Source of the DNA: Tubulanus polymorphus
Taxonomy: Eukaryota > Nemertea > Palaeonemertea > Tubulaniformes > Tubulanidae
DNA: 64,000 bases
Assembly (NCBI RefSeq): GCF_964204645.1
Contig: NC_134026.1
Coordinates: 29,220,650-29,284,649 of the forward strand
Direction of reading: 5' to 3'
Below the pieces are notes generated by a model. That model was not told the DNA's origin and did no database searches. It worked only from the letters and a program-made list of their open reading frames with translations. This document shows positions 3,174 to 64,000 of the stretch, piece by piece; position 1 is the stretch's first letter; the number at the start of each line of letters is the position of its first letter. A program made the position numbers and the translations under genes.

Positions 3174-6084
3174 ATGGCGGAGTTCGACCTCACCACGAAG
3201 ATTGCACAGTATTTAGATCGACATTTAGTCTTTCCTTTATTGGAATTTCTGTCTGTAAAAGAGGTAAATAGAAGGATTTCATCGATAAGATCATATATAT
3301 GTAAAGTTATGTGATATTTTAATTCCCCTATTAAGGGTTATTAGTGATAATATGTGCGCGTTCATCCACCGGCTCCACACCGTGACTCCCGGATAGTCTG
3401 AGTTTAATTCGTTAAGCTCTTAGGACCTAACCATCTAACGTTGCGGCCTAGAATTTTAGATACGAGGATGGTGTCATTTAAGTATAAATGGACTATTTAT
3501 AACTGGGATATTAATCTCGATTAATGTTCTTAGAACTTAGTGAAGGATGAATTTGGAAGATTTTGGATTGGCGGGCAAATCCATATGCCTCGATTTTTAT
3601 CAATGTATCTTGTAATTTCCAGCTATACAATGAAGATGAAATGCTTAAAGGAAAACTGGAGCTTCTTAGCAACACAAACATGGTTGATTTTGCCATGGAC
3701 GTGCATAAGAGTTTATACCCTGATCAAGAAGTCCCTAAAGGTAGAATACATGACAAACCTCTAATCATCTCATCTGTATACAGCGATAATTTAATGGTTG
3801 TTTGTTTTGTTTTATAAACAGGATTGAGAGATAAACGTGTAGATGTTGTGGAGGAATTAAAACAATTACAAGCTGCAGTTGATCCTATTACGAAAATATT
3901 TGAAGATCAAGAAGTCCTGCGACAAATTCAACAATCTAGGTAACTATTTCACTATCGAGCTAGTGCTAAGCTTTTTTACCCCCTATATTGAGCCTCAGGT
4001 GAAGCCTTCATCGGTATTATTTATTCTGAAATTTATTTCTGTTTTGTTGTTCGACAGGGATGGACGACAGCTATTCGAGTTTTTGGCCAAGAATCATGAT
4101 GTAAGTTTACTAACCGCGAGTGAAACACTGATTCATTAAGTCTTTTGAGTTGAAATCTTTGGTTTTGAGATGTTTCTTGTTTTCTATAGTTTCAGCATGA
4201 TATGTTAACAACTTTGTATAAATTTGCCAAGTTTCAATATGAATGCGGTAATTATTCTGGTGCTGCTGAATATCTCTACTTTGTTCGAGTTTTGGTAAGT
4301 TTTCCCTTGACCTATTGACAGTAATATCATAATTGATTGGACACTTGCAAAAACTATCATAAATTTGCCATCTCTCTATTTTCAGATCCCCAGCCACGAC
4401 AAAAATTTCCTGAATGTTCTATGGGGTAAATTGGCGTCGGAGATTTTGATGCAGAACTGGGATGCAGCTTTAGAGGATTTAAACAGATTGAAAGATATCA
4501 TCGAGGCTAATGTAATAATTATTGAATGAAGCTCATAAGTCTTCACACTACGTTATTAAGAACATTCTAAATTTAGTCCGTTTTGATTTATTTAATAAAT
4601 CAAAATCTGTTAGTAATAATTACTAACAGCTGATTTAAAAATGTGTAAATGGCTAGTAAGAATGGACTAACTAGCGATAGTGTGAATGTGTCTAAAGTAT
4701 TAGAGAATTAAACTGATTTTCATGTTGTTGTTTTTGTTTTAGACGTTTGGTTCATCGCTACAGTTATTGCAGCAGAGAACTTGGTTTATTCACTGGAGTT
4801 TATTCGTATTTTTCAATCATCCTCGTGGACGTGATCTTATCATTGATCTGTTTCTCTATCAGCCGCAGTAAGTAACTGAAGTTCCTATTTCTATTTTCTC
4901 GTAAATGTTTCGAGATCGGCTTTCCAATCAACCCTGGAATTTTGTTTTTCAGATATTTGAACGCTATCCAGACTTTATGTCCCCATATTCTGCGTTATCT
5001 GACCACAGCCGTTATCACTAACAAGAGACGAAGAACTGTTCTAAAAGATTTAGTCAAAGTTATTCAACAGGTAAATACAGGACCATTGAAAAAATTGCCC
5101 ACTACTCCCTGTGTAAATTATGCTTAAACTACTGCATTATACACAAGTCAATAGCATATAACAAACTGATGTCACACGCGCAAGACCTCTTTATATCAAT
5201 GTTATATTTCAGGAATCATACACGTATCGCGACCCTATTACTGAATTCTTGGAATGTTTATACGTTAACTTTGATTTTGACGGAGCTCAACAGAAATTGA
5301 GAGAATGTGAAACGGTATGAATTTTACTGAGCCGTGGAAATTTTAATCCTATTTCTTACTTTAGTCATCATTACCGAGTATTTTGATGTATATTTTTCAG
5401 GTTTTGACCAATGATTTTTTCCTGGTAGCCTGTTTAGATGATTTCATCGAAAATGCTCGCTTGTTTATATTTGAGACATTCTGTAGAATTCATAATTGTA
5501 TCAGTATCAGGTAATTCTCATTCCGTATTCGATCATCGATTCTCAGAATTTCGAGCTATTACTAAGAATAGCGTTTTATTTATATTTATTAGTATGTTAG
5601 CGGAAAAACTGAATATGACCCCGGAAGATGCAGAACGATGGATCGTAAATCTGATACGTAATGCAAGATTAGACGCTAAAATCGATTCTAAACTAGTAAG
5701 TAATATAGAAGACTCCGTACAAGTAAACTGCTTTATTCATTGAATTTTTCTCTGCTTCTCAACTCTGGTCTTTGGTACATCAATTATATACTGAGTTTCG
5801 AATCGTATTTGTATTAAACCGCGTGATTGCCTTTCAGGGTCATGTTGTAATGGGAACTCAAGCAGTGTCGCCGTACCAGCAGGTCATCGAGAAAACGAAA
5901 GGTTTATCGTTTCGTTCGCAAATGTTGTGTATGAACATTGAAAAACGTCTAGGAGTAAAAAGTCAAGAAAATGTAAGTATGCAGATCATGCCTTATTTTG
6001 CAAAATTCCATTTACCTAAGATATTGGTAGTTGAGCATTATCATTTAATTCCAGTTGAACCAGTGGGGAGGACCAGAGTTCTAA
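3174..6084 (+). CDS. EIF3E: Eukaryotic translation initiation factor 3 subunit E (eIF3e/INT6)
   Basis: Complete gene of 13 exons: 3174-3263, 3623-3740, 3822-3939, 4058-4100, 4190-4294, 4386-4511, 4743-4867, 4953-5070, 5213-5314, 5401-5510, 5593-5695, 5838-5972 and 6055-6084. The phases join to give 440 residues, close to the roughly 445 of the human protein. It begins [18 protein letters not shown], as eIF3e proteins do. It continues through the conserved [15 protein letters not shown] and [15 protein letters not shown] into the PCI domain ([20 protein letters not shown], with [13 protein letters not shown] just after). It is a structural subunit of the eIF3 complex in the cytosol, which recruits the 43S complex to mRNA. 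The usual human C-terminal tail is replaced by a short LNQWGGPEF end. Intron 6 carries a palindromic MITE-like insert. Confidence 0.97.
4565..4676. repeat. Palindromic MITE-like insert in eIF3e intron 6
   Basis: The insert holds two consecutive near-perfect palindromes, about 25 bp at 4581-4605 and 23 bp at 4607-4629. It is bounded by TTCTAAATTTAGTCCG on the left and an inverted relative, AATGGACTAACTAGC, on the right. Related TTAGTCCG/CGGACTAA ends recur in the CPEB locus. This suggests a non-autonomous DNA transposon family, but no target duplication was confirmed. Confidence 0.5.
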
Positions 6085-6196
6085 CATTCGCCGCTGATTT
6101 ATCGTCGTTTATCAAACTTCAGTGACAGTCAACAACCGTCGAAGCCGTGGTCAAATATTACTCTATAATCACTGAGACTCAAATACATGTGATGAA

Positions 6197-6213: not shown

Positions 6214-8032
6214 AATTCATAAAATTCTATCGATGGAAATCAATCTTGTGCATCGTTTGTAGAAAGGCTTGAGCAATTTTCAGCACGGTGTTGGAGCAGT
6301 AGCAGTTTTTGCCTCGGATCTCACAGGACCAAATATTTCAAATGCTAGGACAAAGATTTTTCAGATACTTGGAAGTCAAAAAGTAGCACATTTAACACTT
6401 GACATTTTAGTGAAAAGAAAACACAAATCGGGGCCTTAACGGTTTTTCCAAAAAGTAGCACTTTGTAGACTTGCTGCAACAAACCGTGTTGTAATTTTGT
6501 TTTCTTTGTCTATTGTGCCTCATCAATCTATCTATTGGTTAGTTCTAAGGACGATGACTATCGTACCTGCAAATACCATTCAAAATATACGAACAAAAAT
6601 CTGATTGAATTTGTTTTATTTCTTAACCACACATTGACAGACGTACAACTACTATTTCGGCTATATTGAGTAATTATTCCCAATGGAAAGTACATGAACT
6701 CCCTGGAGTATTATTCAGTGTTTAATGCTCTACATTATATTGAAATTGGATTATAAAGAAAGCCAGCTAAAAAAATAATCCATTACAGAGACTGTACTAC
6801 AGGCAAGGCTACTAAATGGACATGCAATCCATATATGCCGATGTACACGTGTATTAGCACAATTAATGAAAAAAATAAAGCACCTCATTTTAGAACCTAA
6901 TTTCAAGAAAAACATTGTAAAATGCGTTTCATACGGATAAAATACTTCAGTATCATTTCAAAGGAATGTAAAATTGGAACAACCATGAGATTACTCGCTA
7001 ATACAAACAGTTCTATTCAAATGGGTACTAAACGTAATCTTTTGATCTACACCACAGTATATCAAATATCCAAATTGTTCTTTGGCATAAATCATTCAAT
7101 CCCCAGAATTTAATGTAGTTATTTACCACAATAATCTAACTGAACCGTAACCAGTTCCAGTAATACTTACATGTATTGTACATCTATTACTGGTAGTACA
7201 CATTTTGTACTGACTAGATACTACACGTATCGGACAACAGCAAATACCTAAAATATTGTGCTTTTTTAGCAAGTACCTAATAAGCTTACCCTACATATAA
7301 ACCAAGCATACACCCACATACACCATTCAATGTGGAGTTAGTTTAACCTGTTATCAAAACAGTTCTTTCGTATTCCCGTATCAATAAAACTATTCTTAAA
7401 TTAAAAAATTAGCCTAGTAAAAACAGTTCAGTATGAACTGATCCTTGTTTAAATATGCTTGTATTGATGAGAATCGAAATATTTCAGGGCAGTAGCTACG
7501 GTAGTTAAGTCAGCAGCGTTGAGATATAAGAAAGGCTTGTTGCATCATTCATATTATAACACTTAATCAACAACATTAATTTAACTTAAAACAAGTGACT
7601 TGAACGAATGAAAGAATTTCATGTTACAGTTAAAAACAATTGATATGTAACAAAGAGAAATGAGGAAATTTCGAAAATATAATTGAAAATGAGTAATAGA
7701 TTTCATCAATTAACTCGTTACTAAATTATTGGTTTCTTAATGCGCAGTATTGCTTACAATCATAATACCATGGGCTCAAAAATGCAAAATGGTCTTCATG
7801 ATTATTTTCATTACCCGTGAAATGCTATAATGGGTAACGGGAATTGCTATAATGACATTCAGTTACTGTATTTTACATGGATCTTAAAAGTGAAGCACCA
7901 GTTTGAGAAAAAGTTCTTTTGATTTACTGCATGCAATGCCCAACAACAGATAACAAAGGAAAAATCACCGTATTAAGAGTTTAGAATAAGAAGATCAATG
8001 ATAATAGTGTATCAGTGTATCTAGATACAGTT
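6214..8032. other. Convergent 3' region of eIF3e and the AGPAT5-like gene
   Basis: AT-rich non-coding DNA between two stop codons. Most is probably the 3' UTR of the minus-strand acyltransferase gene: a minus-strand AATAAA is present as TTTATT at 6615-6620, which would give a UTR of about 1.4 kb. No convincing gene is seen here. Confidence 0.5.
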
Positions 8033-10555
8033 TTACCAACGTACTAACATCCAAACAATTCCAGTAATTGTACCGACGACAGTATATTTCAGATACAACG
8101 AACGTCCGATACTGGTCAACATCATCGGAATAAATATGGCCGCAAATCCTAAAGCCACGGGTAAAGTACGCCATCTAGAGAGTGGAGAATGTTCTCCATC
8201 TTTCCCTAAATCAGCGTCCCCGGTGAGTTTGATGTCACGGTAATACTGATCCATCATTCTGTCGAATAGAAAATTACCATAAAAGACTCTTTTTATTTTT
8301 CAAGAAATCGAGTAGAAACTCTTAGTAAATACATACTTATTCTTGATAGAAAACCGTTGATGTAACCATTGTTGAAGGGCTTTTTCCTCAGTTGGTACTT
8401 CATTGATATCAATACGTTTTACATGGACATGAATTTTACTCACACTTCCACCAACTATGGCTGAATTTCAAAAATAAATCGAAATCAGTCGAGACATCCT
8501 TAATTGAATGAATAATCGACATAACTGTAATACTGACCAGCCATACTGGGAGCAGTTATTCTCTTTCCAGTAGAATCTGTTGAATCGGAGTATGCTATGG
8601 TTAGATCGTAAAGTGCATCTATATGTCCCTTCAACATGTTAACTCCCATATGAGTAGCTTTAACGCGAGGGGTTAATACATGTTCAAATACTTCTAAACC
8701 TAAAGAATACAAAAATAGAAAATCAAACAACAGTAAATTACTTTGCATATAAAAACAACTTGTTCACTCACACCTTCACTTTCTGCATATTTTTGACTTT
8801 TTTCTATCACTTGTTTTTTCGTTGGATTGAAGCGTGTTCCTTCTGGGAATATCACTAGCCAGAACTAGAATAAAACAAAGCACTTTATAAAGTAAGTGAT
8901 GATTGTAGATAACGTAGATGAATAAGATCATTCAGCGAAGCACTCACTGGTAGACCTCGTAATTGTTCGACTTGCTCAGCTGTTTTCTTTGGTACAAATT
9001 TTCTTGCACGTTTTACGTAGACACAACCATGCTAGAAGAAAATTAACAAGAAACTTATTTTTATGTGACGGATTTAAGATTTATATCATTGGATTGTAGT
9101 TGTCAATTGTATGTTCCTGGTGAGAGAACATGTAAGTGATTGTCACCATGTTCAATTGAGCAAGTGCAGAAACTGTAATTATTTCTAAGCATCAGTACCC
9201 GCACGTGTTAAACTGGGATGTGTATGATAGTGTAAGGGTGTGTCCCTTTAACAATTAGAAATGGGTTGTGAACAAACAAGTGTATAAACAGAATAAGCTG
9301 TTGCATTTCTTCCAGTCTCGATTGGAATTTAAATCTGATGCTTCGACACTCTATCATCACATAGACATGTACATTTATTATTTACTATATTAAATTTTTT
9401 GTTGAAAATCGATGACTCTGCCCGTAAATATAATGTATATGTATTATAGCGATGATTATGAGTAAAATAAAATCTAATCTACTAACCATTAATTACAATA
9501 TGAGCCCTACCTGTCTGAAGTAATATCCGTACAATGGAAGATATTTCAATTCATCTTTTAATACATATCTCAGTTGACCTAGACTGTTACATCTCAGTGC
9601 AAGCATGTTTGCAACTGCCCAATCAACTACAGATAACAATAATTAACTTCAGTATGATTGATTCCAGTAACAGGAATTTCAAAAGTGATTTGTGATTAAC
9701 TTACTGGTACATTGATGATTGCATATATATAGTACATTCTCTTTTTTCCCTTTAATTTCCTCATAATCTCCGTAAAACACAACCTTAGAAACAGTGATAA
9801 CATATCTTAAAAATTTTCAGGGTAGAAATTTATGACTATACGAATAACCCTAGGAGAACCTATAAAATCATTAGGCATTCAGACTTATATCAATTAACCC
9901 TTTCAGTGCGTCTACACCGCAGTGCGGTGTATAAATCAGTGATGGATTTTGCTAGTACACCGCACTGCCGTGTATTGATGTAATTCGTAATTTGTAATTA
10001 TCTCTATTGAAAAATGGCAGCAAGTGTCAAACATAGTGAAATAATAGTAACTAACGATACACCGCACTGCGGTGTAGACGCACTATAGTGGTTTTCCCAT
10101 TGTTCAACACACTAGGGTGGAATTTTTTAGAATTTTCAAATTTTCTCTAGCGTTATAGGGTATTAATTAGTCAGCACTGAAAGGGTTAAACATCAAATAA
10201 GTCTGGCAGTGGTTAACACACACAATACTCTGGGATTACTTATAATGCAAGTCTGGAGTTCCCAGAGCTAGAACCTAACCAGCGGTGCAATCACACCAAA
10301 AAGGAGTTAGTCCTACAACTTAAGTCTTTTTCTTACCTCAACACCAGGATAATGCTCAAAGAAGAACAGAATTAATCGTTGATACATCGAGTAGAAAATA
10401 TCATCAGCAAAATGGAAAACTTTCTTTGGTAAGAACAACGTAACGACTCTCATCGGAAGCCATAAACCGTAATAAACAGGTGCAGTACCAGCCATAAACG
10501 TTGCAGGTACGATCCATTTCAATTCCCGGATACAATTCATTATAGCAAGCATCAT
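8033..10555 (-). CDS. AGPAT5: 1-acylglycerol-3-phosphate acyltransferase, AGPAT5 (epsilon)-like
   Basis: Complete gene of eight exons in transcript order: 10337-10555, 9705-9783, 9511-9626, 8948-9031, 8774-8864, 8538-8699, 8337-8460 and 8033-8258. The phases join to give 366 residues (human AGPAT5 is about 364). The enzyme family acylates lysophosphatidic acid to phosphatidic acid in ER or mitochondrial membranes. The N-terminus has a hydrophobic segment (LKWIVPATFMAGTAPVYYG). Acyltransferase motif I is NHQCTID, fitting the catalytic NHx4D rule, and motif III is FPEGTR. The HVLTPR and DALYDLTI segments match the family. The C-terminus ends in membrane segments (VALGFAAIFIPMML and YTVVGTITGIVWMLVRW) as in AGPAT5. 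The start is the first Met of a Met-Met pair at 10555; an in-frame Met at 10573 is possible, but a splice acceptor-like TTTTAG lies between the two. Confidence 0.94.
9894..10189. mobile_element. piggyBac-like MITE with TTAA target duplications, in an AGPAT5 intron
   Basis: The element is 9898-10185 (288 bp). It starts CCCTTTCAGTGC and ends with the complement GCACTGAAAGGG. It is flanked on both sides by TTAA (9894-9897 and 10186-10189), the target site typical of piggyBac transposons. No transposase is encoded. The interior has three copies of a palindromic motif close to ACACCGCAGTGCGGTGT. Confidence 0.85.
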
Positions 10556-11631
10556 TCTAAAATCTGTATTCAACGCAATATGACGTTTAATTTGCTCAGT
10601 TTTAGCTGTAAAACAAAATCAAAGCACTGTGATAATTGAAAGGGCTACACTGCAGCGCTTAAGCCACGACAGGGGCTTGTCAAGTCACGACACAGATTGG
10701 GGTCCCCCACAGGGGCTTGTCACGATAGCTGGGGGTCTAAAAACAAATATTCGACCCATGTTGGACCCCCAACTATCTTGACAAGCTTCTGTAGGTCCAC
10801 CTGCATTCTCACACCTGAAGAGGCTACCAAGCGATTTAGGCCCAGACTACTACTCTACTGTCTAATTGACAATGTTCATCTCTACCTTGATTAAAGCCTT
10901 AAATTAATATTGTGAAGTCAGTGTTTCAGTACCTGGAACCACTTTGGCGGTTCACGTTTCTAATCATGCAGTTTATGAACTGTTATAAGCTTTCTGTGCC
11001 CGCCTCTTCCCGCACATATGTGTTTATTAATACTGAAAATTTTTTACACACCAGCCTCTTTATCAATAGTAGCGCCATCTATCGATTAGAAAGCGACACA
11101 GCTTTCCGGTTTATGGTGATGTCCCATAAATCACATGCGGCGCGGCGGGTAGCGTCTCTCAACCATAACCACTTGACACGTCGCGTTGAACGGGTCTATT
11201 CGCTGTATCATGGTGAAGAGAATGTGGAATACACCGTCATGTGTTATAGGGGTAACCCTATTGATCATGTCATTACTGTCAAACGTTGAGAATAAGATAG
11301 TTAAACGTAAGCACAATACTCACTGACGTACCGCAGTAGTTAGTTACCTAATCGTTTGTGGTAAGCTTTTCATAATCGGATGGGCTTATACTATACCATA
11401 CCGCAACGTGGTTTGTGAAAATATCCGATCGTGAAACTAAACCACAGACAGGTTACTGACTATGACGTACCGCTGCAATGTTTTTGTTTTGTTTTTGATT
11501 TTAATTTGTTCTAATTAGTTTTTGTTTTAGATTAAGTGGAAAATGGGCAGATTGTTGGATGCATTGATTTGAGTTCAATGTGAATATAATTTACTTCCCT
11601 AGTTTGATTTTTAATTTTTAAATCATTCCAG
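10556..11631. other. Region between the AGPAT5-like gene and the first recognised exon of the SOD repeat gene
   Basis: This must hold the acyltransferase promoter and probably the missing signal-peptide exon and promoter of the SOD repeat gene; neither could be fixed by eye. At 10699-10798 there is an imperfect inverted repeat with 35-39-bp arms (around CTTGTCACGATAGCTGGGGG). Part of the left arm is repeated directly at about 10668. At 11320-11478 there is a weaker inverted structure with two GACGTACCGC copies. A plus-strand open frame at 10912-11289 shows no recognisable protein. Confidence 0.4.
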
Positions 11632-14600
11632 GTCAAACTCTACAATTAAAAGCTGATGTTCAGATGAATGGCGTCACTGGTTCTGTAGTTTTTGACTCAT
11701 CATCTATAAAATTATCGCTATCTGGCACTCCCTCCAGTGTGCAATATCAGTTTGAAGTAAGAGAATTTCCTGTAGATTATCAAAAGCCGAAGCCATGTTC
11801 TACAATTGGCAAAATGTAAGTGTTCATGATTATAGTGCGGAAGGGGGGGGGTCATTCAGAACAACACTAAATGGCATTCCAACTGAGTAAATAGTCAGCC
11901 AATTCTAAGAAAAATAATTATCACCTTTCAATTTAATAGGATATTATTCTTCTTACTGTATAATTACGATCTCTTTTCACAAAGAAACAAAACCATTATT
12001 ATAATCATTAGTTTGGCAGAATGTCAATTATTTTAAATGGAAACCACATTTTTGAATTCTAAATTGAGGTATAATTTTTTATCGTTACCAGTATACTAGC
12101 TGTTTTTGTTGCCTATGAAAACCTGAACGCTGATAATGTCATAGGCCTAGTCAATAGAGCTACAACATTTGTTTTGTATTGTATGTAACTCATTATTTTT
12201 ATCATTTTGCTGTTCCGGTACCGGATATATATATATTTATATATCTACAGTGTCTTAGACTGGCCTTGTTTAGCTATTATTATATAGGCCTACATGTTGT
12301 TATGTCAATATATGATAAAAAATGGATCTTTGCCAATTTTATCAGTTCTATTTCTAAAATTCATTTGATAAAATCATAGAGCGCATGACATTTCACTCAG
12401 TTGATTATAATCATATGTAGATCAAAACAGAGAACACTCATGTAGGTTTTAGTAATTCAATCTTGTAGGTTTAGACAATTTTGTCCCAATTTCATGAATC
12501 TTGACATGATTTTCTGTTGAAATTGAAACCCGTGCTCTCCAGTGACATTTGTTTTCGATCTTTGAACTAGTTTCAGAAATTTTACGGCAACCACTTCGAA
12601 CTTGCAAAACCCAATAACAAAAAAGTTAGCGTTGAGCGGTTCAAACAGTATAGCAGGTAATGAATATTTTCTTGTAAGATTAAAATGTATAAGAAATATA
12701 TTGTTTTCAGTGGGAATGTTTTTGAAAGGTGTTGAATTTTTTGATAGGTCGTTCAATCCGTTTGAGTGCTGCTTCATGGGAGATTTGTGCTACTGTTGAC
12801 AGTTATACAAAAACAGCTCATGCCAGATTTACTACTGTTATCGGTGGAGATGTATTCTTTAGAGGTTCCTCAAACTCGAAAGACGTGTCCATTTTATCGG
12901 AGCTTTACGTCGTTGATGCGACGAATGTCGCGAGTAAACGAAAATTTAAAATTTACGACGGTTCCGTAGATGAAGCTCTACCAATTGTGGATCGATGTAA
13001 AAATATTGGCAAAGTTTGGAATCCAAACGGTATTACTCCGAGTGGATGCTCACAAGTGAACCCAACTGGATGCCTGGTTGGAGATCTGTCTGGAAAATAC
13101 GGTGATGTACAAGTCGGTGTCGGGGAAGGCATCAAAAGTATGTTTACTGACTCATCATTCGGTCTCGGCGATGGACGAGTCATTGGAAAGGCGTTGGTTT
13201 TATTGGACAGTAATGATCAAGTGTTAACTTGTGCCGCGATCCGTGATTTAAAACCTAAAGAAGCGTCATTCTCTGTGAACCGAGACGGAATTCGAATCGG
13301 TATGATGTTCAAACAGACGTACCCGTTATCACCGACAGCAATATCTATCTCATATACTTCGGGCGGTGCGCTTACTCAGTTCCAGATTTGTGAATTTCCA
13401 GTTTTTCCTCGTCTTACTAAATCTGAGGATGTATGCAGCAATGATACTCTGGGGCCTGTGTTCGATCCACTAGCATCAGCCGGAGGAGCCGTAGACTCCA
13501 CTCCCGATATAAATCCAGTCGGTGATCTTTCAAAAACCTATTTTTCTCGAATTTCTGCATTGATGAAATCAACCAACTTCACGGTGAACAATCACTATTT
13601 ACAATTATTTGGTCACAATAGCGTGATTGGACGGTCGATTAGAATTCAGGCGTCCAATGGGGCTGTTGGTTGTTGTCATATAAGATTACGAGGAAATGTA
13701 CGAACAGCTATTGGTTCATTTAAATACCCAGTTTTTGGCCATGCAATATTCCAACAAGATGCGACGGATCCGTGGACTGAAACGACAGTTTATATTTCTC
13801 TGGATCGATTGGATGGTACAGTTACGAAGAATCACATGTGGCACATTCATAAGTATCCGATTTCGGCTGATTTTACGGCACCAGGAAAAGCTCGCTGTGC
13901 ATCAGAGGGGGGCCGTTTCAACCCGTATAATGTGTATATGGGTAGGAATTACAGTGCTGCGTGTAATAAAGATAGTGAATTACGATGTCAACTCGGAAAT
14001 CTTGCTGGAAAACACCGCAATATCGATATAGGAGGAGGGAATAGGTATTTCTTCACCGATGTATTGATGCCTTTATCAGGACCTATGAGTATAATCGGTA
14101 GAACAGTTGATGTACATAATCCGGATGGAAGTAGATTGTCATGTGCAGACGTCATCCTTCAAAATCAGCCATCCGTTCTTGCTGATTTTTCGGATGGCAG
14201 TGGACCAACCGGAACAATCAGTCTGAAGCAGAAGTCGTTATACCACGCCACTTCAATAGATGTGAAGTTGTATAATCTAGCGGCGAATGCTGGAGGATAC
14301 CATGTTCATCTTTACCCTGTTCCTTACAATCAACCCTTGCCTTGTTCACCTGCCAATGTTGCTGGGCATTTTGATCCATTTGGACCCACAAAAGCGCCGG
14401 TTAATGGTACCGGTAGTCCAAATCAGTATGAAGTTGGCGATCTTAGTGGAAAATTTGGTTTGTTAACTGGTAAGTTCACCTGATTTTTTCACTACTTATA
14501 TTTGTCAAAGTGAATTGTTACCATTTAGGTCAGACAATAAGACAATAAGTAGATTTAATCATTTGAAGAGTTATCTTCACTTATGATAGATTATTTGATA

Positions 14601-16253
14601 TCTAGATGAAGAATATTATAAAATGACGTGAATATATTTTAGATCTGAACAAAATTGAGAGGACATTCAACGACCCATCATTATCATTGACCTCGGCACA
14701 GTCCGTGATTGGTCGTTCTCTTGTCATTCATAAAAAAGATGGCAGTCGTTGGAAATGTGCTAATGTAACACATGACACTAAAGGAATTAAAAAAACTACC
14801 GCTACAGTTATTGAAGCGACTGCTAGTTTTGATGGTGATATTGAAGGATACATCAGTTTGGTAAGAATTATAATATTCTACCGCTTTTATACTTTTAATC
14901 ATTAAAAAATGACTTCATATGACTACTTTATCTTTTTAGAGTCAGTTCGTGAATTTCGATACTGGATATTTTTCCAACACAGCTATAGAAATAGATTTGA
15001 AGTATTCCTATGATGTCAAGAAAATAGTAAGTGGAAAGGTCTTGCTGCATAAACTTTGATTTAATGGAAATGTTTTAAGATATACCAGTGAACAATTTCA
15101 GACTCGTAACCACAATTGGCATGTACATACATCACCAACTGGGTTTGGAATGACAGTTGCTGAAAAATGTGTCAGTCCACATTACAATCCATTCCTCGCA
15201 AACGTATCATCAGTAAGTTCTCTGTTGTTTAGTTGATAAACAAAACTAGGAAGTTATCTTGTTACAAAGTAAAAATTGTATCCTGTTTGATAACATTTTG
15301 TCAGTTATATCGAAGAATTGATTTATTTCTATGGGACATAATTAACGGATATATTTTGGTCGTGTTTCAGAAAAGTTATGCCACTTCTTGTAAATTCGCA
15401 AACCCATTAGCCTGCGAACTTGGTGACCAGTCACGCAAACTAGGACAGTATGACATCGGTGGTGGAAAGGCTTTCTTTACTGATGTTGATTTACCACTTG
15501 CTGGCAACTTCTCTGGTTCGTACACCAACTCCTATATTCATGTAGTATTCACAGTGTAGGCTTACTCGTCACTATGTGTATTATTTCTATCCAGTTATTG
15601 GTCGCTCTTTCGTCGTTCATGCCGAAAATTCTGGAGGCCCAAGAATTGCTTGCGCTGATATCGTACCCGAGTCAACTCCGCAAAGGGATATGAATTTCCC
15701 TTCGACATCCTTCACAAAGTGAGAGAATTTTTCGACGAAAAAATTTTTCGCAAATTTTTTTCCTAAAAAATCGTTGCTGTTGTTTACATAACGATATAAT
15801 GATTTACAGGACTGAGTTACGGGATATGGTGGTGAAGATATTGGATATTGAGACATGGCAAGTGACTGTTTCATCTGAAAATTATGGAAAGATTTCTTCC
15901 CAGTGTATGAAAGCAGTTATATATTTCCCTGGTATGCATGATGCATGTTTGTATTTTGTTACACATTATATTTGATCCGTTCATGTCATGTCTCTTTTCT
16001 TTCCTCATTCTAGGAGCGCAAGGTGAAATGCTGTTGAGAAAATTTGATGAGACACCTGCCGAAAAGTTTGGCAAATTTCAACCCACAGCCATTTGCATAG
16101 GTAATTTAAAATTCAATGATAAATAGCCTTTCCTGTGAAAAAGTCAATCAATGCTCACGTTAGCTCTATTGCTTTTTTCTAGGGATGAAATTCGATGCAT
16201 CACTTGTGTTGTTGCTATTGGGAATCATAATTTCAAGAACATCTATCATGTGA
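11632..16253 (+). CDS. Secreted, probably GPI-anchored Cu-only superoxide dismutase repeat protein (5' end missing)
   Basis: Eleven exons with joining phases: 11632-11815, 12577-12656, 12748-14469, 14643-14860, 14940-15026, 15102-15212, 15371-15515, 15595-15718, 15810-15931, 16014-16100 and 16183-16253. They encode about 983 residues; the first exon, which should carry a signal peptide, was not found. About seven SOD-like units are visible, marked by repeated SVIGRS, GDLSGK and FTD motifs. Units 5 and 6 keep a full copper set: HVH (YHVHLYP, WHVHTSP), a third His (GHFDP, PHYNP), a fourth His (VIGRSLVIH, VIGRSFVVH) and the Arg near the last Cys. Unit 4 keeps HIH and the last His but has Arg for the third (GGRFNP). 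Units 1-3 and 7 lack most ligands. The His that completes the zinc site in ordinary Cu/Zn SOD is absent before GDLSGK, as in Cu-only SODs. The protein ends in a hydrophobic tail (ASLVLLLLGIIISRTSIM), suggesting GPI anchoring. Its expected role is extracellular superoxide removal or copper binding. Confidence 0.88.
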
Positions 16254-20178: not shown

Positions 20179-20680
20179 CGTAACGTCCTTGACCTTACTG
20201 TTGTGAACTATTTCCGGTCAATTGTCTCTGACAATTTTGTTAAGACAGAGGGGTCAGTTGTCTTAACACCTACAGGTCACCCGACGACAGATTCAGGAAT
20301 TTGTAAGTTTTAGATCAATACATTTTATCAACTGATCAACCTCACTGAATATGTCTTCGATTAAAAAGTAGAACCGCCTCAAATTTCAAAAAACGTCAGC
20401 CTCTTTTTTACACTTTCTTATAAGCGGCTGCTTGCCCTGCTGTATATATAGACTGTACTGTGGTGTATCTGTATTTGTAAGAGTTTATTCCATTCATTGA
20501 TGTTACCACTTCTGGCATAACTGTCAACGGTGGAGAGAGGGCGAAAAGTGAAAAACAATTAGCCCTACACAGACACGTCAGTCAGACATGACAGATCCCG
20601 ACAGACAATAAAACTTACTAAATAAGATATAATCTTAAAGCTCCTTATAATATATTAGCGTTTATTCTATTAAAGGCATA
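20179..20680. promoter_or_regulatory. Putative bidirectional promoter between TMEM128 and sideroflexin
   Basis: 502 bp separate the two divergent start codons. The short distance suggests shared or overlapping promoters and 5' UTRs. No core promoter motif was recognised with confidence. Confidence 0.45.
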
Positions 20681-22881
20681 ATGGAATTACCGGACGCAGA
20701 CAGCTCACAGCAAAGAATTAACCTCGATGAACCGAGATACGATCAGGGAACGTTTACCGGACGCGCTAAACATTTCCTAATTACGACGAATCCGTTAAAT
20801 TTGTTCGCCAGTTCTCAGCAGTTAGACGAGGCTAAACAACTCGTGCACGCCTACAGAAAGGGACAGGAACCGCCGGACGTAACTGACGATGAAATCTGGA
20901 GAGCGAAACATTTATACGACTCGGCATTTCACCCGGACACTGGTGAAAAAATGATGCTCATCGGAAGAATGTCGGCTCAAGTGCCGATGAATATGTCAAT
21001 TACTGGTTGTATGTTAACATTCTACAAGTAAGAGTTTAATCAATCAAATATTGTAGCTGACGGTCCAGTTTCACGAGTGAGTTAAACTCTTAAATCGATT
21101 TAGGAGTTTTTGTGAAACTGGACTCGGGATAAAGAATGCACAAATAAACATATGTTTACATATATACTTCAGAACTTCAGGTCAAACGATATTCTGGCAG
21201 TGGATTAATCAAACGTTCAATGCAGTGGTTAATTACACAAACAGAAGTGGAGATCACCCGATTCCTGTCAGGTAAATCATGATTAGTCTAAATTGAGCAT
21301 TCTTTCAACAACTCCGCAAAAATGAATTGAATTTGATGAAGCAATTAATCAAATTTCACAACATTCTCCATCCTCTATTTTGTTTCAGTCAGCTTGGTTT
21401 ATCATATGTACTTGCTACTGGTGGTGCGGTTGGAACTGCTTTAGGTATTAATAAATTAGTACATGTAAGTTTTCAATTTCTGCCGATGACAGCATTTCTT
21501 ACCTATCCGATGATATCATATTTTCAATGATTTTCTATTTATATATCATTTATAGCGATTTCCACCAATCGTTGCACGGTTCGTTCCATTCGTAGCAGTA
21601 GCTGCTGCTAATTGTATCAATATACCCTGTATGAGAAGTCGGTAAGTGTCAAACTAAATCTTTCAATCTAACACAGGGGCGGATCGTGGAAAATTGGATG
21701 GCGGGGTCCAGAATAAAAGGTATTTCTCTGATAAAGCAGCAATGTCAAAGGCCACTTGCAGGGTCCCACCCTCAGTATTAAGATGGTTCTTAAGGAATAG
21801 TTCCTCGGCTGGGGGAGGGGGGAATTTGCAAATTCCCCCCTCCCCCAGTCGAGACCACCCTCTAAATCCACCTCTGCTAATAGTCTTCGATCTTAAGTGT
21901 GGTCCACATAATCTTGTGATTATGTGAATTTTAAGTAAACATGAAGACTTAAGTTTTATTAGAAATACAAGCTTTACTAGTTGCTCTCATGCTAGTTAAC
22001 TATCATGCACTAAAAAGCTCTTATTTCTAATAAGATCAAGTTAGCCTACTACCAGGTTTTCATGTTTACTGATTTGACACCTGGTGACACGGTTCCTCTA
22101 GAACTCCTCTCATTTATTACTTTTAGGGAATTGTCAGTAGGAATTCCGGTATTTGATGAATATGGAAAGAGAATTGGAGAATCTGTAACCGCTGCACGTA
22201 AAGCTATATCACAAGTAGTAGTATCACGGGTTTCAATGGCAGCACCTGGCATGTGTGAGTATCTGATTTGCAGAATAGATAAATTTGTATCGCGTTCAGC
22301 AGGGAATAATTGTTTTTAATCAATTTCTGTTCTAGTACTTACCGCTGTTATAATGGATAGATTGGAAAAAAGAAGTTTCATTAGGGTAAAGTCTAGTCTC
22401 AATTATATTAACACCTAGTATATTTCATCATTTCCGTGGTTCGTCACACACACTACGGATCTCCAGTTATATTTACAAACACTTATTTTCATGGATTTAT
22501 GTATATAAAATTTTCTATTTTCAGAAATATCCTATTATGAATCCTATATGTCAAGTTGGTTTAGTTGGAATTTTGTAAGTTTCTTTGAAATCTGCTGTTT
22601 TTTAGTGACAGAGAATAGTTGGTATAACGATATTGAATATTGTATTTTGCAGCCTGGTATTTGCGACACCTCTCTGCTGTGCTTTGTTTCCACAGAAAAG
22701 GTTTGTAATATTCAGGATTTAAAGAATTTAATTCAAAATTACATGCGATTCATTAATACATTTGTTTTTTTTTTGCTATTTCAGTTCAATATCTGTGCCT
22801 AAACTGGAACCAGAATTACAAGAAATAGCTCAAAAATTTCGCCATCCTCCAACTACTGTGTACTTCAACAAAGGACTTTAA
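20681..22881 (+). CDS. Sideroflexin (SFXN1/3-like mitochondrial serine transporter)
   Basis: Complete gene of nine exons: 20681-21027, 21173-21271, 21389-21464, 21556-21641, 22127-22254, 22336-22385, 22525-22574, 22653-22700 and 22785-22881. The phases join to give 326 residues (human SFXN1 is 322). It shows the family signatures: TTNPLNLF near residue 33, the conserved [48 protein letters not shown] and the C-terminal [15 protein letters not shown]. It ends VYFNKGL, as SFXN1 and SFXN3 do. Sideroflexins are multi-pass inner mitochondrial membrane proteins; SFXN1 and SFXN3 carry serine for one-carbon metabolism. The start Met at 20681 fits the usual N-terminal length. Intron 4 (21642-22126) carries a hAT-like MITE and a separate inverted repeat. 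Confidence 0.96.
21673..21882. mobile_element. Candidate hAT-like MITE containing a perfect 40-bp palindrome
   Basis: The left end reads CAGGGGCGGATC, a start seen in many non-autonomous hAT elements. The right end (CCACCTCTG, near 21870) is an imperfect complement. Inside, 21809-21848 is a perfect palindrome with 20-bp arms, starting CTGGGGGAGGGGGGAATTTG. With one mismatch the arms extend to about 25 bp (21804-21853). No coding sequence is present and no clean 8-bp target duplication was found. Confidence 0.5.
21933..22072. repeat. Inverted repeat in sideroflexin intron 4
   Basis: The arm 21933-21980 (AGTAAACATGAAGACTTAAG...) pairs with 22017-22072. Shared blocks are AGTAAACATGAA and TTATTAGAAAT and their complements, with small gaps. 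It could be a MITE remnant or an RNA hairpin in the pre-mRNA. A small perfect hairpin (CACATAATC/GATTATGTG) lies just before it at about 21905-21926. Confidence 0.5.
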
Positions 22882-24513: not shown

Positions 24514-26460
24514 ATGAACATCAGTGGAGTGATTTACATTTTCGGTACGTACTAGTTGTTTGAAAATACGATGTTAAAATCCGTTGAAATAAACCCGAGA
24601 AACAAGAAACTGAGAAAAATCCCCCGGACATACAATTGCTATGCTTTCAAAGCTAAAATTTGAAAAATTCGAACCTACATATACACGCATGGGTAATTCA
24701 TAAAACCTGAAATGATTTCTAAAGTTTCAAATAAAACCTCTGTTGACTAACATCCATCGGGTAATAAATTGATGCATTAATACATTAAGGTGTTGATTAT
24801 TATTATTGTTATTATCAAATCATTAGCTGTCTTGTACTTGATTGTTGATTGTACTCATTTGCCTTTATAAAGCCGACTTAAAGTTTGAACTCTGAAATTG
24901 TTCCACTGTATCCGTGGACTAACATCAATTTTTTTTTATCACAATAGTGTCAAGTTCTCCGCAAATCTGCTTTGCTGGCCCGTACTTGAAGAGATATCAA
25001 ACAAGTTTAAGATCTCTGATTGAAACGGCAATATATAAAAATGCGTACTGGGGTTTAGAAAACTTACGATGCCATTCCTAGCGTTTTCTTTTAGAATCCA
25101 ATTTCGAATCATTCCCTCCATCTGCAGAAGGTTGTTATTCCGCATTTTTATAACACATCCAGGGGAATCTTTCAAAATTTTGAGTGCTCTTAAATTGGGG
25201 CATTTTCACTGCGGAAAAGTCCCTAATATAGGCGCCTTTTTGGACATCAATGTGCCAGTTTTGGATGGGACAAGTTAAAAATTGGCCCCCTGGAACTATA
25301 TACGCCCTGGCAACTTGGTTACATATGATTAAACTATGCATTTCATCATGATGAGAAATACCGATCGTTCACTCAGAAATCAGTTGATAGTTTCAGTCAT
25401 ATCAAAGTTGGGGTTATTCTATTTTAAAGGTATACTATCCTGCGCGGTCTTGCAGATTTACGGTTCCGATATCAAGGCCGAAATCTGCGCTATGTTCGCG
25501 AACGAACGACCGGCTTGTCAAGAGTATGCCCAAAAAGGGATAGATTACTTCAGCGCTGATGATGGCCCATGTGCAAACTTGAATGGAGAAGGTAGAGGCA
25601 GTTGTATATATGGAGTGCAGTCTCTCTATTTTCCATGCACAATTTTTCGAATTGAACCATTTACCGGAGAACCACTTCGTAAATGTATCGATGTCATTAA
25701 TAAAGTCGATGACCAGTGCCGCTGGGATAGCTGCTTCTCGTGCAGTATTTTCGTGAATTATATGAATGAGGAAAAGGGTGGCATCTTGGATAATGGAATT
25801 CACGTCCACTCGTGCGAATGTTTCAGAGAATTGCCGTGTATATTCGAGTGTTTTGGGGATGATTTGAAAGATTTTGCAGGTAAGATATGAAAACACTTGA
25901 TAGAATAATTGACTATGTAAGATCTTTCGACGAATATGTAAACAAATGTTCTATACCTCTGTATAAGGCATTGGATTTGGAGCAGATGAAAAATTCAACG
26001 AAAAATTTACGAAGGTGAAAGGTGTCATGCAGAATGGTAACTACGTACTTGATAACGAACCGGTAACATGCGCTGATCAATACGCGGAAGGTTATGATAA
26101 AACTGACCAGGAAACGAAGCTAGATTCATTTATGGACGGCTTCAAAGAATGGCTCGAAGCAAAAAAATAGATTATTCAATAATTTATTATGTAGACGATA
26201 CATTTAAAAATTGCATTCCTGAATTAAAACAACAACAACATATTCATTTATTGGAGCTAGAATATAATTAAAGTATCGTCACTACCTGAAGTCATTCATC
26301 GTTTGTCTAATGCGTCGTTTAATCCCCAATTCATTGATGCGGATTAGTGGATTTTCATGGTTAAGGTAAGCTGAGGTCCTGATTATCCATAGCTCGGTCA
26401 AGATATTCGACAATACGACCTTATCCTACTTTGGAGAGTTGTTTTTTTTACAGTTTATTT
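24000..26460. repeat. Segmental duplication, copy 1
   Basis: The region is similar to about 27830-29640 along its length, in introns and flanks as well as exons. Shared flank markers include TGAACGGAGT and AGGAAATCTT upstream, and CATAGCTCGGTCAAGATATT downstream (near 26385 and 29585). Copy 1 intron 1 is 885 bp against 321 bp in copy 2, partly because of about 230 bp unique to copy 1 near 25140-25390. Confidence 0.75.
24514..26170 (+). CDS. Unrecognised secreted Cys-rich protein, copy 1 (intact)
   Basis: Three exons with joining phases: 24514-24544, 25430-25879 and 25968-26170, giving 227 residues. The first exon and the start of the second make a signal peptide (MNISGVIYIFGILSCAVLQI). The mature protein is Cys-rich, with clusters such as CRWDSCFSC and CECFRELPCIFEC, then an acidic, Cys-poor C-terminal third containing VTCADQYAEGYDK. 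There is no transmembrane segment after the signal. The even Cys spacing suggests a disulfide-bonded extracellular protein. No family was recognised, so no function is given. A second copy lies 3.8 kb downstream in the same orientation. The short first exon is supported by the same structure and splice sites in copy 2. Confidence 0.75.
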
Positions 26461-27829: not shown

Positions 27830-29640
27830 GGATCCGACTTGAACGGAGTCTACTGTAGCATTTTCCCCAGGAGTTTGACTATAGGAAATCTTCGATATAA
27901 GCAGATTCACTCCAAAATAACCGTAGCAACTGTGTATCATTCTTTATTGACGTTTTCGTGCTAATAGAAATTGACAATTCAGTGGTACATCTGGAAGAAT
28001 GGTGGCAGAAAACGAATCGATTTTTCATCAGTATTTTTTGAGTTTTGTAAAAATATTACTGACATCAATCTATTGTACGTATCTGCATATATCATCAAAC
28101 GAATATATACTTATTGGTTGCTCATTTTATCGCCCATTAAAAAGAATGAACTTAATTCGATTCTCATTCGCGTTCAAATTCAGCGAATCAAAGTGGTCCA
28201 TTTTCGACTTTTTTCAAAATAACTTCATTCCCCTGAATCGTGGCGTTCGCATCGGACGGAATTCATTTTCAAATCTTTGTCCAGCAGAAGAATTACGTAG
28301 CTCATCATGAATATCAGTGGAGTGATTTATGTTTTCGGTACGTATCTAATTGTTAAGTAAAACGATGTTAAAATCCTCTCTATCATAAAATATCCAGAAA
28401 ATGCGTGCATTATTGTTCCACATTTAAATTGAGTCGAATTATTTAATATACTTTGTCGGCCTTGCGGTGACGAGGTATTATTGATATCTCCGATTGATCC
28501 GTCAATATTGGTAGTGCATAGTGGGTTTTAGAAAGAAACGTACAATGATCCGATTCTTAGCGTTCTTTTTAGAATCATTCCCTCCATCTGTAGAAGCTGC
28601 TGCTTTTGGACATTGATGATTTCAGTAACATCAAATTCGGGATTATTCTATTTTAAAGGTATACTATCCTGCACGGTCTTGCGGGTTTACGGTACCAATA
28701 TCAAGGCTGAAATCTGCGCTAGGTACGTGAACTACGACCAACAGGTTTGTCAAGAGTATGCCCAAGAAGGGATTAATTATCTAAGCGGTGATGATGGCCC
28801 ATGTTTAAACTTGGATAAATATAGATTGGTTTGCATATATAATGTGCAGACTTACTATTTTCCATGCACAATTCTTCGAATTGAACCACTTACCGGAGAA
28901 CTCCTTCGTAAATGTATCGATGCTATTGAAAAAGCCGATTCTCAGTGCCGCTGGGATACATGCTTATTGTGCAGTAGAAATTTCGTGACTTATATGAATG
29001 AGGAAAAGGGTGGCATCGAGGCTAATGCGAATGTTTCAGAGAATTGCCGTGTCTATTCGAGTGTTTTGGGGATGATTTGAAAGATTTTGCAGGTAAGATA
29101 TGAAAACACTTGATAGAATAATTGACTATATGTAAGATCTTTCGACGAATATGTAAACGAATGTTCTATACCTCTGTATAAGGCATTGGATTTGGAGCAG
29201 ATGAAAAATTCATCGAAAAATTTACGAAGGTGAAAGGTGTCACGCAGAATGGTAGCTACGTTCTTGATAACGAACCGGTAACATGCGCTGATCAATACGC
29301 GGAAGGTTATGATAAAGCTGACCAGGAAACAAAGCTAGATTCATTTATGGACGGCTTCAACGAATGGAACAAGTGGGATTAAATTGCCGATCAATTTTCA
29401 AAATGCACTCCTGGATAAAAACAACTATATACATATTCATTTATTGGAACCAAAATTTTACATTAGAGAATCATTTACCGTATATCTAGCGTCGTTTTAT
29501 AACCTCAATCATCACATATTGATACCTTTTTGACGCGGTTGAGAGGATTGGAATGGTTAAAATAAACCAAGGTCCTGATTTTCCATAGCTCGGTCAAGAT
29601 ATTCGACGATACGACCATCTTACATTGGAGAGTTTCTTTT
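27830..29640. repeat. Segmental duplication, copy 2
   Basis: The partner of about 24000-26460, in direct orientation. Exon 3 and the 3' flank are the most similar parts. The unit begins just after the LINE fragment, so the LINE may mark or have influenced the breakpoint. Confidence 0.75.
28307..29382 (+). pseudogene. Secreted Cys-rich protein, copy 2, frameshifted (pseudogene or truncated product)
   Basis: The exons match copy 1: 28307-28337, 28659-29092 and 29183-29382. The signal peptide and splice sites are kept, and most of exon 2 is open. Near 29020-29030, exon 2 has lost a net 19 bases relative to copy 1. This shifts the frame, gives a new C-terminus and stops at 29078-29080, for a product of about 150 residues. 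The downstream exon 3 remains open in its original frame and is still similar to copy 1 (66 codons, ending NEWNKWD). It may therefore be a recent pseudogene, a shorter secreted protein, or a gene whose splicing avoids the shifted part. Other exon 2 indels between the copies are multiples of three, suggesting coding constraint before the break. Confidence 0.7.
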
Positions 29641-41900: not shown

Positions 41901-44900
41901 GCAGGCATCCGTTAACCTTTAACGACATAGCAATAATACCGGATGACCGTCGCTCGCAGCGACTGAACTGAATAGCGCCGAAATCATTTTTAGAATACAA
42001 TGTCTCGAGGGAAACCTATAAAAACCTCCTACCGAGCTACTTCACTGTAAATTCGAAGGCAGATTTCGAAGACCGACTACTGTAACTCATCTACTCAGTT
42101 ACTCGGTTTCGACGGAACGAACTAATCATGATATGAATCTCAAACACTAATGTGACATTTCTGGTGTATGCAAGGCGCATTTCGCGATGAATCTAAATGT
42201 GTTTCGAAGCACAGTAAACAAATTCAATCAGATGAACGGAAATGAAATGAAACTCGCAGGCGCTATAGAAAACACTTCCATCACGAATCTAATGACAACA
42301 TTCCCACCAGAATCCATTTTAATTAGATATAAATAGAAAAAAGGCGAAATTTTCAATCTAGCAGATGAGTCGCAAAGTAGCGATGATCTATAGAACTAAG
42401 AGAGAAGCTAGACACGCACTCAACCAAATGGGAAACATTAAAATCCATATTCAAAGATGTCTTTTTTGCTTCTATGCAGCGCAGCGAAAAGTGAACTTTA
42501 TTTGATCCTGATAGCGACAAAACGCGCTACACCTCACTGAGATTATCATTCATTCATTCATTCAAGGTCTCAGTACAATCCCTGCGACACTCCTTACGAG
42601 TTCGGCTTATAGGTCTGAATGGATACGTTCTGTCTGGTGATTTATTGAAATAAATGACTGACAAATGAAAAACACCTTAAACATCATAGAGAAATGGTAG
42701 TTTTGACGTAGCTCTATCTCGATGAACCGGTGTCTAACGGTGATCGGTAATTACACTGTCCTCAAAGACGATCAGTTGATCAAGCGTGAAACTAAGTTTG
42801 AGCATCAATCACCGAAACCTGTAAATTACGAACTGACGAACTGTGGTAATACGCTGTGATTAACCGATTGATTTATTGCTTTTCGAGCTGAATTTTTAAT
42901 TCAGGAGACTCTCCTAGCTCTCCTCGTTTCGGATCTATTTCTGGACATAATGAACCATAAATGAGACTAGACTAGATGAGCAGTACATGCAGTGACAACG
43001 CTCATATCAATTAGTCTACATAACATCAATTCAAATCAATTAATTCTACTATGATTGATCACGATCCGTACGATCCATTTCAATCCCTGTGACTGCCCAG
43101 TGATCATCGCACCACAGACTCCCTACGACTGCCCAGTGATCATCGCACCACAGACTCCCTACGACTGCCCAGTGATCATCGCACCACAGACTCCCTGAGA
43201 CTGCCCAGTGATCATCGCACCACAGACTCCCTGAGACTGCCCAGTGATCATCGCACCATAGACTCCCTGTGACTGCCCAGTGATCATCGCACCAAAGACT
43301 CCCCGTGACTGCCCAGTGATCATCGCACCACAGACTCCCTGTGACTGCCCAGTGATCATCGCACCACAGACTCCCCGTGACTGCCAGTGATCATCGCACC
43401 ACAGACTCCCCGAGACTGCCCAGTGATCATCGCACCACAGACTCCCTGTGACTGCCCAGTGATCATCGCACCACAGACTCCCTGTGACTGCCAGTGATCA
43501 TCGCACCACAGACTCCCTGAGACTGCCCAGTGATCATCGCACCACAGACTCCCTGTGACTGCCCAGTGATCATCACACCACAGACTCCCTGAGACTGCCC
43601 AGTGATCATCGCACCACAGACTCCCTGTGACTGCCCAGTGATCATCGCACCACAGACTCCCTGAGACACAATGCCAGTAGCAATGAGTCGCAGTCTCCCA
43701 GTCTCTCAGTCCCAACTGACTGAGACTAGTCATTCACTGTCGCCGACAATTGTGGTAAGTTGCGACCAATTCCTACTGATCACATGGCATCGCATGTTGA
43801 CCTATGCCTGCCTCGAGGCCAACCCGGGAGAACATTTTACCTGGGTAAAAAATTCATAAAAAACAAAATTAGTCTACGTTGATCGAGCGACTGAGGCCCT
43901 TGGCTAACTAGCAAATTATAGGTCGAATTTGTTACATCACGGTTTCTGAGAAAGATAAAGCCGAGGCTTACAGCGAAGCAGCTTCACCGATATTTAACAG
44001 ACGATGTTTAGGGAATAAAACAAGGGAAACTGAGAGAGTGAGAAACATGTCACAAACAGAGACAGAATAAATTTCTCGCATCAGACAATCAACAATACAT
44101 TTAATACAGAGAGAGCGAGAGAGGGGGAGAGGGGAGAGGGAGAGAGGGGGAGAGGGGGAGAGGCAGAGCTGCTGTATTCCTCTAAACCTTCAACTCTTAA
44201 ATATACGACATTTCAGCTTGGTTCACCATTTGAATACAGCAGTAGCTCCTCAAATTTGGGAGTAGGGGCGAACAATTATCAGCAGGGGGAGCATCAGCTG
44301 GTCCTGGTCCTCCCACAGATAATATTTATAACTAAATTCATTCCGAGCGCGATCGCAGTAATTTCAACTCACAAATCGAATAGTAACTTCACAACTTACA
44401 CTTAAGCGAACTCAATCACATAGTTCGAAGGAATTTAGAGGATTCACGAGCTCCCCCAGTGCGACCCCCCCCCCCCCGGATTCCCGCTCGAAGAATACTG
44501 TCACCCAAAAATCATAATAGCTGTGATTCACTTCTAAGAATTTTTATCAACGAACATCAGAAAAGTAATTTGTGGCAGGTCTTCTAAATCTGTTCGTGTC
44601 GGAATGTGATAAATTAGGGATTTTTCTCTTTTTAACGCGATCCTATTTCGATCCTATTTCGAACTGCCGCGGTTGAAAACGAGATCGCTGTATTATAAAT
44701 TGATGATGTAACGTTTATCCACGAGGTTTAACACCGAGATTAACAACAATTCCTCATTCTGCCGAGCTGCCAAATATTCCCCCATTCCAACAATAAATCA
44801 TATTTGAAGATGAGCTTTGTGAGTAATACAAGACGTTACGTAAGTTATGGCTTAGTTAACTGATATTCTATTGAGTTTTAGACGTAACAGAATTCAATAC

Positions 44901-59830: not shown

Positions 59831-64000
<4,170 letters not shown>

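Follow-up and report, generated by a model that had tools for sequence, protein, structure and literature searches.

The gene at 11210-16253 on the forward strand of the 64,000-nt stretch of DNA analysed here (the window) encodes several superoxide dismutase (SOD)-like units in one chain, and the question that it raises is what kind of protein this is and which of its units may still work with copper. The reading that we favour, to which we give a probability of about 0.8, is that of an animal Cu-only SOD repeat protein (CSRP). Six Cu-only-SOD-like units and a short C-terminal region would make up a secreted chain, probably with a GPI anchor, in which units 5 and 6 would be active, unit 4 weak or dead, and units 1-3 structural.

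The 14 modelled exons (Table 1) gave a single open frame of 1057 aa (114.7 kDa including signal and tail), and the phases were compatible at all 13 junctions. Introns started with gta or gtg in 12 of the 13 cases and with gttcgt, a weak donor located at 15516, in the other one. The exons were picked by eye to stay open and to follow the SOD pattern and, as a consequence, the open frame is no independent test of the weak exons. Exons 3, 4 and 5 were not listed by an HMM of units 2-6, which was made without unit 1. The original prediction had started the stretch at 11632, a position that the model places at the beginning of exon 2; the gene probably starts upstream, at exon 1, whose product has a hydropathy of 2.7 at residues 11-23, the signal-like call having been made by hydropathy alone. 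A first exon at 11462 was also considered and was dropped for the present exon 1, which has a canonical donor. The exon-intron structure of the model is uneven, since units 2-4 and most of unit 5 lie on one 1.7-kb exon and several introns interrupt units 1 and 6. Besides containing introns, the gene has eukaryotic-type genes as neighbours, and scans with exact peptides, a method limited to close relatives, confirmed no relative in prokaryote genome contigs or viral contigs.

Table 1. Modelled exons, units and copper sites of the SOD-repeat gene (positions within the window).
Feature	Positions	Strand	Basis
Exon 1: ATG and likely signal-peptide-like stretch	11210-11306	+	gtaagc as donor; in phase with the acceptor at 11632
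Exon 2: unit 1, first half	11632-11815	+	frame stays open between a cag acceptor and a gtaagt donor; E 0.8 with the HMM of units 2-6
Exon 3 (tentative, 27 nt): unit 1	11860-11886	+	phase-compatible; likeness to unit 2 by eye alone
Exon 4 (tentative): unit 1	12092-12184	+	phase-compatible; alternative donor at 12175 equally open
Exon 5: unit 1, late part	12571-12656	+	splice sites and phase; alternative acceptor for 12577 equally open
Exon 6: unit 1 end, units 2-4, unit 5 first part	12748-14469	+	1.7-kb open frame; Pfam Sod_Cu 1.2e-22
Unit 2	12798-13250	+	within exon 6
Unit 3	13251-13694	+	within exon 6
Unit 4	13695-14162	+	within exon 6
Unit 4, partial site: His 13842, 13848, 14115; Arg 14133	13842-14135	+	SOD5 alignment and unit inventory
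Unit 4, substitutions: Arg 13914 at the bridging-His position; Gln 13989 at the E110 position; Asn 13998 at the D113 position		+	SOD5 alignment and unit inventory
Unit 5, first part	14163-14468	+	within exon 6
Unit 5, complete site: His 14301, 14307, 14367, 14729; Glu 14430, Asp 14439; Arg 14747	14301-14749	+	spans one intron
Exon 7: unit 5 end, unit 6 start (from 14768)	14643-14860	+	model
Exon 8: unit 6	14940-15026	+	HMM of units 2-6 (unit 6 included) gives E 0.0012
Exon 9: unit 6, His 15120, 15126, 15180	15102-15212	+	model
Exon 10: unit 6, Glu 15416, Asp 15425, CX7C	15371-15515	+	donor gttcgt weak
Exon 11: unit 6 end (His 15618, Arg 15642), C-terminal region start (15666)	15595-15718	+	model
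Exon 12: C-terminal region, without SOD likeness in sequence	15810-15931	+	model
Exon 13: C-terminal region	16014-16100	+	model
Exon 14: stop codon and hydrophobic tail resembling a GPI signal	16183-16253	+	hydropathy

The SOD similarity of the chain was evident in exon 6, the main exon, which matched Pfam Sod_Cu in four stretches. Its search against the PDB gave eight sequences at E up to 0.01, the best four being the Cu-only SOD5 of Candida albicans and the other four Cu/Zn SODs. Taken singly, unit 5 (4.6e-13), unit 4 (1.3e-07), unit 3 (0.0044) and unit 2 (0.0091) matched Sod_Cu, and unit 6 reached 2.1e-06 with 28.6 bits, just below the cut-off of 28.9. When each unit was scored with an HMM that left it out, units 1 to 6 obtained 14.1, 28.1, 39.8, 63.9, 59.0 and 62.0 bits, respectively. 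The nearest PDB relative differed from one unit to another. Four SOD5 chains came first for unit 5 (3.3e-12 to 2.4e-11, the best Cu/Zn SOD being at 1.4e-08) and were the only matches of unit 2 at E up to 10 (best 0.0083). For unit 6, Cu/Zn SODs were weakly ahead (0.0092) and SOD5 followed (0.061); the SOD matches of unit 3 were all Cu/Zn and weak (best 0.0026), with no SOD5 chain among its 13 matches. No SOD in the PDB was matched by unit 1, which is weakly supported as a SOD-like unit by the 14.1 bits of its spliced product and the E value of its first exon. The only structure model obtained, that of unit 4 from a shallow alignment of four rows, had a poor pLDDT of 43.6 and did not confirm the fold, so that the beta-barrel expected of each CSRP repeat is supported here by the sequence similarity of units 2-6.

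These data point to six SOD-like units in tandem; the last two look copper-competent by their ligands (see below). The tandem arrangement in one chain had been anticipated by the original prediction, which counted about seven units; the count had to be lowered to six, as its unit 7 showed no SOD similarity. A seventh SOD unit was rejected because the 88-aa C-terminal region scored -1.3 bits against the six-unit HMM, below 94 of 200 of its own shuffles. In addition, the VIGRS and GDLSGK motifs are absent from this region, searches of Pfam and NCBIfam at E up to 1 found nothing in it, and its only PDB matches were two LptE chains at E 1.5. The C-terminal region (15666-16184, forward strand), having no clear relative in Pfam, NCBIfam and PDB, is worth comparing among CSRPs.

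Residues 1040-1052, in the tail, have a hydropathy of 2.8, the highest 13-residue value of the protein, as expected from the GPI-like tail that had been noticed beforehand. The protein is probably secreted and GPI-anchored at the cell surface, judging from the hydropathy of both ends and from its kinship with CSRPs. The tail ends in SRTSIM, so that another type of anchor is possible.

The copper sites were then read unit by unit. Units 5 and 6 have all four copper histidines, the active-site Arg and the Glu/Asp pair (E110/D113) of Cu-only SODs, the ligands having been assigned by SOD5 alignment in unit 5 and by motif in unit 6. Three of the four copper histidines and the active-site Arg are kept in unit 4, which has Arg at the bridging His and GNL at the GDL motif. 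None of the four copper histidines is present in any of units 1-3, the bridging position of unit 1 lying on a weak exon. This inventory agrees with the original prediction: four histidines and Arg in units 5 and 6 only, Arg for one His and Asn in GDL in unit 4, and nearly all ligands lost in units 1-3. At the second-shell positions of unit 4, Gln and Asn are found together. In the alignments, the D113/E110 positions are occupied by N and Q in the SOD5 entries 5kbm and 5kbl and by D and E in 4n3t; the former two are presumably engineered SOD5 mutants. Each of the two residues occurs singly in the solved entries, and their joint presence makes unit 4 a candidate example from nature of the loss of a Cu-only site. 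The names E110 and D113 and the role of these residues are taken from section 6 of a CSRP review (PMC13017621).

Traits of Cu/Zn SODs, namely the zinc ligands (read in units 4-6) and a long loop VII, are absent. Direct reading of units 4-6 found no His from the position of the bridging His to the (E/Q)xG(D/N) motif, which bears out the earlier claim that the zinc-site histidines are missing as in Cu-only SODs. In the alignment with human SOD1 the columns of the zinc loop and of the first Cys were shifted and therefore were not used, motif spacing and the SOD5 alignments being employed instead. From the position of the fourth His to the last Cys there are 6-10 residues in the six units versus 25 in human SOD1. 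A Cys pair, one before the bridging-site motif and the other near the end of the unit, fits by position in all six units and is predicted to form a disulfide. The fold motifs had been said to persist in the degenerate units, and this was true only in part: GDLSGK is intact in unit 2, but it is GDLSKT in unit 3 and absent in the model of unit 1, and VIGRS is kept unevenly, with VIGKA in unit 2 and SIAGRS in unit 1.

By these sequence features (Sod_Cu and SOD5 matches, copper ligands and missing zinc histidines) the protein is most probably an animal CSRP, the family to which it had been assigned from the start. CSRPs were described in 2018 and reviewed in 2026 by the same authors (PMC13017621), and members are also named CUSR in fish and SOD4 in amphibians. 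According to the text of that review, they are extracellular, carry GPI anchors, have mostly six repeats in animals and metal-less N-terminal repeats, and contain from 0 to 9 intact copper sites, intact and lost sites being mixed in several of them. Since six repeats and a mixture of sites have already been described, this gene would be another CSRP, with a mix of a known kind. Its six tandem units with short linkers are in the CSRP range of 4-12 repeats. One or two dead N-terminal repeats are the rule in the review text, which also describes members devoid of copper sites; the pattern found here is therefore within the known range. The exact pattern (units 1-3 lost, 4 damaged, 5-6 intact) does not appear in that text; the review gives the patterns of individual species in its Fig. 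2B and Table S1. What the gene would represent is a CSRP in intermediate copper-site loss, with three dead units, one damaged and two intact.

Like the CSRP of Crassostrea gigas, the present protein has six repeats, of which the N-terminal ones are dead, and it also has a short last loop and lacks a zinc site; its signal-like and GPI-like ends and its mass above 100 kDa likewise agree with CSRPs (compared by description). However, the oyster protein has intact sites in repeats 3-6, whereas here only those of units 5 and 6 are complete, the site of unit 4 being damaged and that of unit 3 lost. C. albicans SOD5 shares the copper histidines, Arg and Glu/Asp pair with units 5 and 6, as well as the missing zinc histidines and the short last loop, but it is a single unit instead of six in tandem. 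Finally, pernin and other bivalve multi-domain SODs have several SOD domains per chain, although pernin, compared by description only, has three (as described in PMC9118643).

Regarding function, the oyster CSRP is reported in the review text to dismutate superoxide (PMC13017621) and a frog CSRP is reported as needed in tail regeneration (PMC10416458). By analogy, units 5 and 6 would most likely be loaded with copper outside the cell and, at the cell surface, dismutate extracellular superoxide to hydrogen peroxide and oxygen. The three-His site of unit 4 is probably weak or dead. Units 1-3 are most likely metal-free and would contribute to the folding, packing or spacing of the chain; a chaperone-like role of dead repeats has already been proposed in the literature. 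Four of the six units are without a full copper site, and this would also fit a protein that has lost its enzymatic role and whose folded units serve recognition or binding, as suggested for oyster dominin or for those CSRPs of moths and tardigrades that lack copper. Copper-less CSRPs are indeed expressed and may act otherwise, according to the review text (PMC13017621). We find this unlikely for the present protein, in which units 5 and 6 retain every ligand, the Arg and the second-shell pair.

The dead units could instead deliver copper, either within the chain to the live ones or to different proteins, as had been suggested originally. The sole support for this is the three-His remnant of unit 4, and against it stand the absence of His from the four ligand positions in units 1-3 and the fungal Cu-only SODs, which load copper from an extracellular pool with no known chaperone (PMC13017621, section 6); we regard it as very improbable. 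Somewhat less improbable, yet still a distant prospect, is that the locus is a pseudogene or a chimera of two adjoining genes. The 27-nt exon and the further exons without independent support that unit 1 needs, as well as the weak donor at 15516, would be in keeping with it. On the other side, units 2-6 are contiguous with the ligands intact in the last two, and the 14 exons make one open frame with matching phases, which is weaker evidence given that the exons were chosen for openness. A CSRP transcribed as modelled, with two working units, remains the reading that we prefer. What the sequence itself shows is that the modelled frame is open when spliced, that units 2-6 resemble SODs and which ligands each unit has or lacks; transcription according to the model, binding of copper, activity, anchoring and the part played by the dead units are inferred from this.

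The order of the units within this CSRP showed a further regularity. Three CX7C pairs exist in the whole protein, one in each even unit (2, 4 and 6) just before the GD/GN motif, and none in the odd units. Units 2, 4 and 6 were on one side in five of six trees built with varied alignment and model, unit 2 being outside in the sixth, and the split between 2, 4, 6 and 1, 3, 5 had a support of 99/99 in the main tree. Once the cysteines of CX7C had been masked, units 2, 4 and 6 still grouped in all three six-unit trees, one of them with a support of only 64/58, and in all three trees without unit 1. Furthermore, units 4 and 6 were together in six of six trees from which unit 2, alone or along with unit 1, had been left out (support 51/22 in one). 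In pairwise BLAST, units 4 and 6 were the closest pair (40.5% over 116 aa, 4e-24), and the best partners were 6 and 4 for unit 2, 5 for unit 3, and 3 and 5 for unit 1. Against the alternation, unit 5 had unit 4 as its best BLAST partner (1.2e-11), followed by human SOD1 and unit 6, and not unit 3; also, human SOD1 joined the even group when added to the tree, the support of this group being then 73/81. Both the very long branches and the fact that the pattern was noticed ahead of testing have to be considered in judging these trees. Trees constrained to keep 5 and 6 together or 4, 5 and 6 together gave p values of 0.032 and 0.033, respectively, for groups that were not all named beforehand, and on this basis the live units 5 and 6 are probably no recent pair.

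We tentatively propose, as a possibility that we hold with less than even confidence, that the array is a module of one odd and one even unit present in three copies, that the CX7C disulfide of the even units may staple the zinc loop in the stead of zinc, and that the copper sites may have decayed from the N-terminal end. If this were true in general, the building block of the animal six-repeat CSRPs would be a two-domain unit, and the odd/even pattern, if shared by other species, would indicate how the repeat array was built. A literature search on a second disulfide found no paper. The review text mentions one conserved disulfide in CSRPs, with an alternative location in frog domain 6, and a word search of its running text found neither duplicated pairs nor a C-terminal domain (PMC13017621).

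Other features were identified in the window. Rfam gave no match at gathering thresholds within the 64,000 nt. At 5438-6122 (forward strand), matches to the PCI domain and EIF3E_C were found, probably the end of an eIF3 subunit E gene, and exons of a sideroflexin are located at 20651-22316 on the same strand (Pfam SFXNs, 1.4e-47 and 5e-13). Exon-like frames on the reverse strand at about 8000-10620 resemble by eye a lysophospholipid acyltransferase, no such Pfam match being obtained in the two pieces tested. Two Cys-rich frames on the forward strand, at 25333-25887 and 28532-29077, are 61% identical over 152 aa, gave nothing in Pfam at E up to 1 and represent a duplicated unknown protein. Two minisatellites were also present. 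That at 43084-43667 has a 36-bp unit in 16.3 copies with 95% matches, its reverse strand being open as a 12-aa repeat, and that at 52689-52984 has a 17-bp unit in 16.6 copies, although it can equally be read with overlapping periods of 37, 89 and 106 bp. Finally, a match to RRM_7 below the cut-off (3.2e-4, 21 bits versus 27) was located at 59574-59933 on the reverse strand, where by eye the product resembles an RNA-binding protein of the CPEB type.
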